A DNA stretch of 64,000 nt from Verrucomicrobiota bacterium JB024. Lineage in GTDB: Bacteria; Verrucomicrobiota; Verrucomicrobiia; Opitutales; Cerasicoccaceae. Below, one piece after another: positions 55,772 to 58,883 of the stretch; position 1 is the first letter of the stretch; each line of letters begins with the position of its first letter. The position numbers were made by a program, and so were the translations under genes. The stretch covers positions 1 to 64,000 of the forward strand of contig JAUTCS010000119.1 in assembly GCA_030673825.1 (NCBI GenBank), read 5' to 3'. A model generated the notes under the pieces. It saw nothing but the letters and a program-made list of their open reading frames with translations, ran no database searches and was not told where the DNA came from.

Positions 55772-56932
55772 CTATCCCCTCGCCTCGAAGGTGCCGTCGG
55801 CGCGTTTGACGACGCACTTTTTGAGTTCGAGCATCATGAGGGTGACGGAGACGACGGGGACGGACAGGTCGAGGCTTTCCCCGATCTCGTCGGCGGCGCA
55901 CAGGCCGCGTTCGCGTAAAAAGCCGAGCAGGCGAGCCTCGTCGGAGCTGAGGTCCACGGCGGGCGCGGCAGAGCCCGAGGAGCCGCCACGCGGGGACGGA
56001 CCGCCTGCGCCGCTGTCGTCACCCAGACCGGGGATGGGGAGCTGCTCGCCGGCGAACTGGAGCTCTTCGAGCAAGTCCTCGACGCAGGTCAGCAGGGTGG
56101 CCCCGTCGCGGATCAACTGGTGGCAACCGCGGCTGGAGGGCTGGTCGATGCGGCCCGGCACGGCGAAGACCTGGCGGTTCTGCTCGGCGGCGAAGCGGGC
56201 CGTGATCATGCTGCCGCCGCTCGCGTCGCTCTCGACCACGATGACGGCGAGGCTCATGCCCGAGAGCAGGCGGTTGCGCATGGGGAAGGTGGTCTTGGTC
56301 GCGCGGGTGCCGAGGCGGAACTCGGAAAAGATCGCCCCGGACTTTTCCAGGCGGCGGTACAGCTCGATATTTTCGGGCGGGTAAATGATATCCAGCCCAC
56401 AGCCGAGGACGGCCACGGTCGGACCGCCCGCCTCCAGCGCCCCCTCGTGGGCGGCTGTGTCGATCCCCCGGGCCAGGCCGCTGGCCACGCAGATGCCCAG
56501 CCGTGCAAGGTCCCCCGCGAGGCGGCGGGCCACGCCCTGCCCGTAGAGTGTGGTGTGGCGGCTGCCGACAATGGCCACGGTCTTGCGGCCCACCTGGAGC
56601 GGGCCTTTCTTATACAAGCCGATGGGCGGGTCGTAAATTTCCTTCAGCAGTGGCGGGTACTCCGCGCTGCCGGGGTGAATGAAGCGGACCCCGCCTTTGG
56701 CCAGCTTTTCCTCCTCTTTGCCCAGGTCGAAGTGTTCGCGCCAGTTGGCCAAGAGGCCCGCTATCTCCGGCCCCACACCGGGGACGCTCTGGAGCGCCTT
56801 CATCCCCGCCCCGAGCACGGCGCGGGGGTCGTCCCCGAAGCGCTCAAAAAGCCGCCGCAGCGTGACCGGGCCGACGCCGGAAAGGCCGTTGAGCACGAGG
56901 GTGGCCTGCGCCTGGGTCAGTTCGGTTTCCAT
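55772..56932 (-). CDS. dprA: DNA processing protein DprA
   Basis: A 386-aa product. It has an N-terminal helix-hairpin-helix part (ATLVLNGLSGVGPVTLRRLF, MKALQSVPGVGPEIAGLL), the Rossmann DprA/Smf core (VAIVGSRHTTLYGQGVARRL, SGLARGIDTAAHEGAL, VAVLGCGLD) and a C-terminal winged-helix (LLGFLRERGLCAADEIGESL). It loads RecA on incoming single-stranded DNA. The start METELTQ at 56932 is exact: a second copy of its first bases stands at 57329-57346, where nnrD ends. The AT-rich insertion leaves no clear ribosome-binding box here. Confidence 0.92.
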   Translation of the reverse strand: METELTQAQATLVLNGLSGVGPVTLRRLFERFGDDPRAVLGAGMKALQSVPGVGPEIAGLLANWREHFDLGKEEEKLAKGGVRFIHPGSAEYPPLLKEIYDPPIGLYKKGPLQVGRKTVAIVGSRHTTLYGQGVARRLAGDLARLGICVASGLARGIDTAAHEGALEAGGPTVAVLGCGLDIIYPPENIELYRRLEKSGAIFSEFRLGTRATKTTFPMRNRLLSGMSLAVIVVESDASGGSMITARFAAEQNRQVFAVPGRIDQPSSRGCHQLIRDGATLLTCVEDLLEELQFAGEQLPIPGLGDDSGAGGPSPRGGSSGSAAPAVDLSSDEARLLGFLRERGLCAADEIGESLDLSVPVVSVTLMMLELKKCVVKRADGTFEARG

Positions 56933-57346
56933 CGGATCGTATATGTGCGAAAATAAAAAGTTATTCAACGTGGGGAGTGTTGCGATAGCATGTCTGTGCC
57001 TAGGCTTACCAATGATCTTTTTTAGAGTAATCTGATGGCGGATAAAAAAAACATAAATCTATTCGGTTTGATAAAAGCGCCCTACCGTGGAAGTAAATTT
57101 CAGATAGCCATTCACTATCTTTATCGCTGTACCCTCGTTCAATGAGGATGTCCCTCAAAGCAAATTTGCTTAGTTTAGTTTGTCCCTCGTGGGCAGCTTG
57201 AATGAAGTGATAAAAGCACTGCATATCCAACTGATGAAATGTTTTTCGATTAGTGAACTGGGTCAGGAAGTAATCCGTCCTCTTCGCTATTTTATGTAAC
57301 ACGCCTCCCCCTTCATTCTGCGAACTTACAGTTCGGTTTCCATCGG
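56918..57346 (-). mobile_element. AT-rich insertion bounded by 18-bp direct repeats
   Basis: CAGTTCGGTTTCCATCGG stands at 56918-56935 (covering the dprA start codon) and again at 57329-57346, 1 bp after the nnrD stop. Between them lie 393 bp that are visibly AT-rich (about 40% G+C by eye) in a GC-rich genome. On the minus strand the outer copy gives ATG-GAA-ACC-GAA-CTG-TAA, an aborted dprA start. Removing one repeat and the insert restores nnrD followed directly by dprA. The proximal end (CTGCGAACTT, 57318-57327) is also complementary to the nnrD 3' end (57351-57362). Element class unknown. Confidence 0.75.
57006..57302 (-). CDS. 98-aa ORFan within the AT-rich insertion
   Basis: GTG start at 57302 preceded by AAGGGG with 5-nt spacing. 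The product is soluble, with mixed charge and many aromatic residues: HKIAKRTDYFLTQFTNRK, HQLDMQCFYHFIQAAHEGQT, KLSKFALRDILIERGYSDKD and a C-terminal LCFFYPPSDYSKKDHW. No known domain is recognised. It is in the same direction as nnrD and dprA, so it could ride on their transcript. Codon choice is AT-rich, unlike the neighbours, which points to transfer. Confidence 0.55.
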   Translation of the reverse strand: MLHKIAKRTDYFLTQFTNRKTFHQLDMQCFYHFIQAAHEGQTKLSKFALRDILIERGYSDKDSEWLSEIYFHGRALLSNRIDLCFFYPPSDYSKKDHW

Positions 57347-57347
57347 T

Positions 57348-58883
57348 TTAAAGTTCGCGCAGGGCCGGGCCCATGTGGTCGAGCAAGTCGGTGGTGTAGA
57401 CGGCGACCTGCCCTTTTGTCCGGGCGAGGTGGTCTGCCGCCGCCCCGTGCCAGAGCACAGCCCGGCAGGCCGACGCGAAGGCGTCTTTCGCGTTTTGCGC
57501 CAGCAGGCCGCCGGTGACCCCGGCCAGCAGGTCGCCGCTGCCGCCACGGGCCAGCACGGGGCCGCCACGCAGGCTGAGCGCGACTTGGGAGCCGTCGCAG
57601 ACGCGGGTGTGCGGGCCCTTCAGGACGGTGACGACGCGGTGCTTGTTGGAAAAATCGATGAGCGCCTCCCGCGCATACTCCGCGCTCGAACGCCCGCTCA
57701 GGCGCATGAACTCGCCCATGTGGGGCGTCAACACGACGGGCCCGGCTTTGGCAGGGCGGGCGGCGGCGGTCTGGGCGATCTCCGGCTGGAGCGCGTCGGC
57801 GTCGAGGACCAGCGGAAGCTCCGTGCGGGCGACGAGGTCTTTGACCAGTTGCAGGGTCTCGGGTTCGCGGCCGAGGCCGGAACCGCACAGGATAGCGTCG
57901 GCGCGGGGGAGCTTTTCCTGTAAAAGGTGCCAGCCCTCCAGGGCGAGTCCGCCCGTGGGCGTTTCCGGCCAGGGGACCCACATGGCCTCAGGCACAGCGG
58001 CGGCGTACTGCGCGGCGAGCGACTCGGGCGCAAAGGCAGTGAGCAGCCCCACGCCGGAGCTGAGCGCGGCCTTGACGCTCATCAGGAGCGCCCCCGGATA
58101 GGAGCGCGAGCCGCTGAGCACGAAGAGGTGGCCGAAGGTGCGCTTGTCGCAGCGCGGGGGGCGCAGTCCACCGAGGGCGGCCAGCGCGGCGTCGGGCAGA
58201 ATGCTTTCGCCGAAGGCGCACGGTCCCTCGTAGGGGAGCTGGAAAAAGCCGATGTCGAGGTAGCGCAGGCGGCCCTCCTTGGCCGCACAGGCGGGGTCGA
58301 AGAGCGGGCTCTTGGCGATGCCGGTGGCGTAGGTGAAGTCGGCCTGAAAGGCGTCCGCGTCGCCGAGGCCGCTGGGCAGGTCCACCGCCGCCCGGAAGCG
58401 GATGCCCCGGTGCGCGTTGACCTCACGGATGAGCGCGGCCAGGTCGTCCTTGAGCGGCGGGTGAAACTGCATCCCGAGCAGGCCGTCGAGCACGATGTCG
58501 TAGGACTCCTGACGGTAGGTCAGCTCATTGCACATACTGGCGCGGGAGCTTTTTAAAAGGTCTTCGAGGGCACGCAGGGTGAGGCCGCGCAGCTCCTTTT
58601 TCTCCGCGCGCAAAAGCACCTGGACATCACCCCCTCCGTGGCGGCGCAGGATCTCGTCGGCAGCCAGGAGGGCGTCCCCACCGTTGTGGCCCTTGCCCGC
58701 GAGCACGAGCACACGCAGGCGTGAGGGTACCTCGGCCAATTCGCCGAAGTCCTGCAAGACGGCCCTCCCCACGCCGCGTCCGGCGTTGTTCATGGCCGTC
58801 CATTGCAGCTCGCGGCTGGGCAGGAGCGAACGCTCCAGTTCCAGGGATTCGTCGGTGGAGAGGATGGGATGGGCGATCGGCAT
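57348..58883 (-). CDS. nnrD: Bifunctional NAD(P)H-hydrate epimerase / dehydratase
   Basis: A 511-aa product. The N-terminal YjeF domain (LVLAGKGHNGGDALLAADEIL, FRAAVDLPSGLGD) epimerises NAD(P)HX. The C-terminal ribokinase-like domain (GHLFVLSGSRSYPGALLMSV, DALQPEIAQT, VVLTPHMGEF, GPVLARGGSGDLLAGVTGGLL) is the ADP-dependent dehydratase. The stop codon is 1 bp from the outer direct repeat of the insertion, so the natural nnrD-dprA junction can be read. It follows acpS on the same strand after 178 bp of repeats. Confidence 0.93.
   Translation of the reverse strand: MPIAHPILSTDESLELERSLLPSRELQWTAMNNAGRGVGRAVLQDFGELAEVPSRLRVLVLAGKGHNGGDALLAADEILRRHGGGDVQVLLRAEKKELRGLTLRALEDLLKSSRASMCNELTYRQESYDIVLDGLLGMQFHPPLKDDLAALIREVNAHRGIRFRAAVDLPSGLGDADAFQADFTYATGIAKSPLFDPACAAKEGRLRYLDIGFFQLPYEGPCAFGESILPDAALAALGGLRPPRCDKRTFGHLFVLSGSRSYPGALLMSVKAALSSGVGLLTAFAPESLAAQYAAAVPEAMWVPWPETPTGGLALEGWHLLQEKLPRADAILCGSGLGREPETLQLVKDLVARTELPLVLDADALQPEIAQTAAARPAKAGPVVLTPHMGEFMRLSGRSSAEYAREALIDFSNKHRVVTVLKGPHTRVCDGSQVALSLRGGPVLARGGSGDLLAGVTGGLLAQNAKDAFASACRAVLWHGAAADHLARTKGQVAVYTTDLLDHMGPALREL

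Follow-up and report, generated by a model that had tools for sequence, protein, structure and literature searches.

The junction between nnrD and dprA in this genome carries a 393-bp AT-rich block that was inserted at the start of dprA together with an 18-bp duplication of the target, and the single small gene within it has homologues elsewhere in bacteria. We see about an even chance that the block is foreign DNA, an element that is non-autonomous or has decayed and that a recombinase or transposase integrated there. The features discussed lie in the window, the whole 64,000-nt stretch of DNA that was analyzed, as follows.

55772..56932, minus strand: dprA, an intact 386-aa ORF (Pfam DprA PF02481, E 1e-74)
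56918..56935, minus strand: dprA-proximal copy of the 18-bp direct repeat (exact match), spanning the dprA ATG and codons 2-5
56936..57328, minus strand: AT-rich insert between the repeat copies, 393 bp, GC 0.40, absent from congeners G001-G003
57006..57302, minus strand: 98-aa ORF with a GTG start, by sequence homology a solo C-terminal domain of an unnamed two-domain family
57304..57313, minus strand: AAGGGGGAGG, a putative Shine-Dalgarno-like stretch before the GTG (read from the sequence)
57326..57343, minus strand: mini-ORF ATG-GAA-ACC-GAA-CTG-TAA (METEL, stop), derived from the nnrD-proximal repeat copy and located at the former dprA start (read from the sequence)
57329..57346, minus strand: nnrD-proximal copy of the 18-bp direct repeat (exact match), CCGATGGAAACCGAACTG in gene sense, 1 bp from the nnrD stop
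57348..58883, minus strand: nnrD, an intact 511-aa ORF (Pfam YjeF_N + Carb_kinase, an NnrD-type fusion)

An earlier note on this DNA had reported that the same 18 bases stand at the dprA start and 1 bp past the nnrD stop, and exact matching confirms it: CAGTTCGGTTTCCATCGG occurs exactly twice in the window, at 56918-56935 and 57329-57346. The repeat is 18 bp long, with different bases beyond it on both flanks, and a search of the window allowing up to 3 mismatches gave no further copy (chance mean 0.07). In 60 Markov-simulated versions of the window, direct repeats with copies 100-1000 bp apart never exceeded 16 bp (the longest per version averaging 13.3 bp); an 18-bp repeat at this spacing is beyond chance. 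The 393 bp between the copies are AT-rich, as the same note had stated, with a GC content of 0.40 compared with 0.636 for the window and 0.65 for the 5-kb flanks, and the edges of the GC drop coincide with the exact 18-bp repeat. Just one repeat in the window is longer than 18 bp (40 bp, at 26/1018); it was weighed as another candidate insertion and dismissed, being the common start of two paralogous genes. Positions 1-1060 hold two tandem PEP-CTERM-like paralogs that share this 40-bp start region (26-65 and 1018-1057). A possible hairpin over the nnrD-side junction, between the end of nnrD and the beginning of the insert, was no more stable than shuffled sequences (z -0.04), and an Rfam scan returned no significant match.

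Of 36 related genomes, 32 had a dprA match, and the loci of 30 of these matches were taken to read the upstream junctions. All three congeners lack the block, their nnrD-dprA gaps being 8, 44, and 17 nt in G001, G002, and G003, whose DprA proteins share 85%, 84%, and 76% amino acid identity, respectively, with that of the window. These empty junctions, the outcome that the earlier note had said would support insertion, show that the block was inserted and that the dprA start was duplicated with it. As the 98-aa protein was also not found in the other 176 of the 177 related genomes searched, the block was gained in this lineage. The gain is probably younger than the splits between the congeners, since the two repeat copies are identical even though the nnrD-proximal one should drift freely. 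Four-fold degenerate sites of dprA differ from those of the congeners by 31-56%, and the probability that an unconstrained 18-bp copy as old as the congener splits would remain unchanged is about 0.05 to 0.003, a rough figure that makes a simple half-divergence assumption. The proposal of a recent gain is thus consistent with both the empty sites and the undiverged repeat copies. In a related genus (G006-G009; loci L006, L007, L009, and L010), a META-domain lipoprotein-like gene occupies an nnrD-dprA gap of ~430 nt, which indicates repeated gene gain at this junction. The presence of such extra genes in other genera is also what would speak for an ancient intergenic region that the congeners have lost; set against the exact repeat and its identical copies, the empty sites in 3/3 congeners, and the absence of the protein from other related genomes, that reading is very improbable. 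We consider an artefact of the draft assembly equally improbable: the assembly, 95% complete, comprises 163 contigs, but the site lies inside a 124-kb contig, and a chimeric join would leave no repeat of host sequence at the two ends of the insert.

On the minus strand, the dprA ATG occupies 56930-56932 and the nnrD stop 57348-57350. The duplicated 18 bp comprise 3 bp upstream of the ATG, the ATG itself, and codons 2-5, such that the right end of the insert maps to the boundary of dprA codons 5 and 6. Since the start codon was duplicated too, the complete 386-aa ORF of dprA persists. Under the integration model, a short piece of horizontally acquired DNA would have entered the 5' end of dprA between these two codons, and duplication of the 18 bp with the dprA start would have rebuilt the ORF, so that the insertion would end up between nnrD and dprA with neither gene broken. 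The enzyme responsible would have been either a site-specific recombinase or a transposase that makes a widely staggered cut, and the 18-bp repeat would accordingly represent an att core or a target duplication. What results is a clean, probably young gene gain that landed at a start codon in an operon and that, with dprA rebuilt by the duplicated target, is tolerated.

When one repeat and the block are removed from the window, the sequence reads nnrD-TAA-A-CCGATGGAAACCGAACTG-ACC, with an nnrD-dprA gap of 4 nt. This is the uninterrupted junction that the earlier note had called plausible, and the presumed pre-insertion gap is in line with the gaps in the congeners, among which the spacing itself varies. 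Loss of the 4-nt spacing would uncouple dprA translation from that of nnrD: a ribosome leaving nnrD would meet the five-codon METEL-stop mini-ORF instead of dprA. A promoter scan of the insert revealed no sigma-70-like promoter. Since the mini-ORF replaces the dprA start and such a promoter is missing from the insert, lower or altered dprA expression, and hence an effect on transformation, is plausible. If the insertion does alter dprA expression, it would offer a natural experiment on how DprA levels depend on operon context.

The only ORF in the insert is the one encoding the 98-aa protein, which, as previously noted, has its own GTG start, with AAGGGGGAGG just upstream. Searches of the protein against Pfam, PHROGs, NCBIfam, and PADLOC gave nothing significant, and its single-sequence fold was poor (pLDDT 58.7). 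Its earlier description as an ORFan no longer holds, as homologues were found in Shinella, a Verrucomicrobia MAG, and three Verrucomicrobiota genomes (G194, G398, and G427). A tblastn search of 7.3 Gb matched the C-terminal part of a 209-aa protein on a Shinella plasmid (E 4e-4; 37% identity over 57 aa). A scan of genome contigs with the single 98-aa sequence yielded no relative, and a two-row alignment with the Shinella relative added yielded five loci, in two Verrucomicrobia (a MAG and a bin), a Rhizobiales bacterium, Devosia, and Caulobacter; the protein of the LacPavin Verrucomicrobia MAG is 46% identical to the 98-aa protein over 80 aa. Profile searches of Verrucomicrobiota matched G194 (E 2e-27), G398 (E 4e-13), and G427 (E 1e-7), and besides the window's own genome these 3 of 388 genomes were the only ones with a convincing match. 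Neither viral contigs, searched with the 98-aa protein and two alignments as queries, nor phage records contained a relative.

Many of these relatives are proteins of ~210 aa (loci L033, L034, L035, L037, L038, L040, and L061) that combine an N-terminal alpha/beta domain of ~130 aa with a C-terminal four-helix domain of ~75 aa. Alignment and profile searches recovered the C-terminal pattern F..HxLDW..FYxF ... LL...GF ... LS.LY.H in the 98-aa protein, from which the N-terminal ~130-aa domain is absent, as it also is from the protein at L036 and apparently from that at L062. By homology, therefore, the window protein is classed as a solo-domain relative and not as a full member of the family; L036 encodes another solo form and L062 probably a third.

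The insert ends in TAAGTT and ATCGTA; the best end-to-end inverted match is 6 bp, which 30% of shuffled sequences reach, and within the insert there are no subterminal direct repeats beyond chance. There is no transposase or integrase gene in the insert and no integrase gene near the site. No copies with the same ends and other flanks, of the kind that the earlier note had suggested looking for, turned up: the genome contains no other copy of the insert or of its ends, bar one 3-mismatch match to one end, and outside the two repeat copies it has no other site within 2 mismatches of the 18-mer. Direct repeats of at least 12 bp flanking the relatives of the cargo gene were likewise missing at all seven loci inspected (L033-L038 and L040). 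Of the small element that had been proposed, then, the insertion with its target duplication stands, whereas its ability to move is conjecture, given the single copy, the lack of terminal inverted repeats, and the lack of a mobility gene.

Such properties could also result from illegitimate recombination, in which a random foreign fragment, for example after DNA uptake, would be caught at a staggered break or by template switching, and fill-in or back-switching would duplicate the 18 bp without any mobile element. Besides the single copy, the structureless ends, and the missing mobility gene, this explanation gains from the larger size of many cargo relatives, of which the insert could be a fragment; we hold it to be a serious contender with about one chance in three. 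Against it, no Ku gene for end joining was found in the 95%-complete genome, and the insert comprises a complete small ORF and a ribosome-binding-like site with little else. Given that solo domains also occur elsewhere (L036 and probably L062), the insert resembles a gene unit and not a random piece. Enzymatic integration is favored mainly because the insert is one such tidy unit and a long duplication requires an enzyme if it does not come from end joining, and we judge it somewhat more likely than illegitimate capture. Also counted in its favor were the repeat at the GC edges, the empty congener sites, the identical repeat copies, the homologues of the cargo, the low GC of family genes at several loci, the Caulobacter copy beside recombinase genes, and the lack of a Ku gene. 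With no terminal repeats, mobility gene, or second copy, no particular recombinase can be named.

One form of enzymatic integration, its likelihood overlapping with that of the main explanation, is that the block is the remnant of a larger tyrosine-recombinase integrative element, the 18-bp repeats being attL and attR around what a deletion left behind. Such elements are compatible with direct repeats that overlap a gene start and restore the ORF, G000 has eight phage-integrase matches, and one cargo relative lies beside recombinases. Islands that integrate at the 5' ends of genes are known: SpyCI islands target the 5' end of mutL (PMC3430984), and prophage HK022 integrates beside torS, between torT and torS (PMC6814406). 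Both resemble the present case in that the target is the start of a host gene or its close vicinity, in an operon or next to one, but they are large and encode their own integrase, whereas the insert is 393 bp without one. The 18-bp repeats could serve as attL/attR, in which role they are indistinguishable from a target duplication. The missing integrase near the site and the lack of any further close 18-mer match in the genome leave this form at roughly one chance in four.

Among transposable elements, the IS1202 group produces target duplications of 16-28 bp (PMC10132070), a range that includes the 18-bp repeat described here; members of this group differ in having 24-26-bp terminal inverted repeats, TGT ends, and a transposase, all of which are missing from the single-copy insert. 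Integron gene cassettes are similarly small and AT-rich, with one gene without assigned function, but a motif check of the insert found no attC-like pair of RYYYAAC and GTTRRRY on one strand. Insertion of an integron cassette is not known to duplicate 18 bp of the target. Mobile elements have been described in the competence genes comYC, comFA, and comM (PMC4774983), targets that, like dprA, are used in natural transformation; here, unlike in those cases, the gene is left undisrupted. The event is a modest case of an already known kind of gene acquisition. A more elaborate scenario, which we regard as a long shot, is a minimal cassette that lacks mobility genes and depends on an enzyme acting in trans, which would cut gene starts with an 18-bp stagger so that the duplication always rebuilds the target; its cargo would be a defence-related small protein, and its insertion at dprA would retune DNA uptake or recombination.

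More interesting than the insertion itself is its by-product, the unnamed defence-associated family. Its inheritance is patchy and its members are often near defence genes. In Shinella and the Rhizobiales relatives, a TIR gene lies nearby on the opposite strand, and the Shinella TIR protein matches Thoeris ThsB (E 4e-114). In G194, the family gene follows a DUF4917 gene that matches the PADLOC candidate PDC-S21; in G398, it lies between a DNA methyltransferase gene and a weak PIN_12 match; and in Caulobacter, it is found between a serine recombinase gene and a phage-integrase-like gene. The GC content of the family gene is below that of its surroundings in L033, L034, L036, and L037. This AT-richness, together with the defence and recombinase neighbors, suggests a gene of the mobile kind that populates defence islands. 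The two-domain family, some of whose relatives neighbor Thoeris-type TIR, PDC-S21, and methyltransferase genes, is a candidate component of a defence or toxin-antitoxin module. Those two-domain members that were scanned had no match in Pfam, NCBIfam, or PADLOC, and the family profile matched none of the PDB sequences. A structural model of the family (pLDDT 81.5) had no clear PDB match. For the fold of the N-terminal domain, which the window protein lacks, the best Z was 8.1, and the NRD of RnlA scored a Z of ~7 among unrelated folds of equal score; such middling values are within the tool's stated noise.

Two of the family loci have further features of their own. At L036, a ParE-type toxin gene (PF05016; 1394-1657) adjoins the solo C-terminal-domain gene on the opposite strand. 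At L034 (4625-5291), the N- and C-terminal domains are in different frames, switching around a T6 run, AAAATTTTTTC, possible readings of which are a sequencing indel, a pseudogene, or frameshifting.
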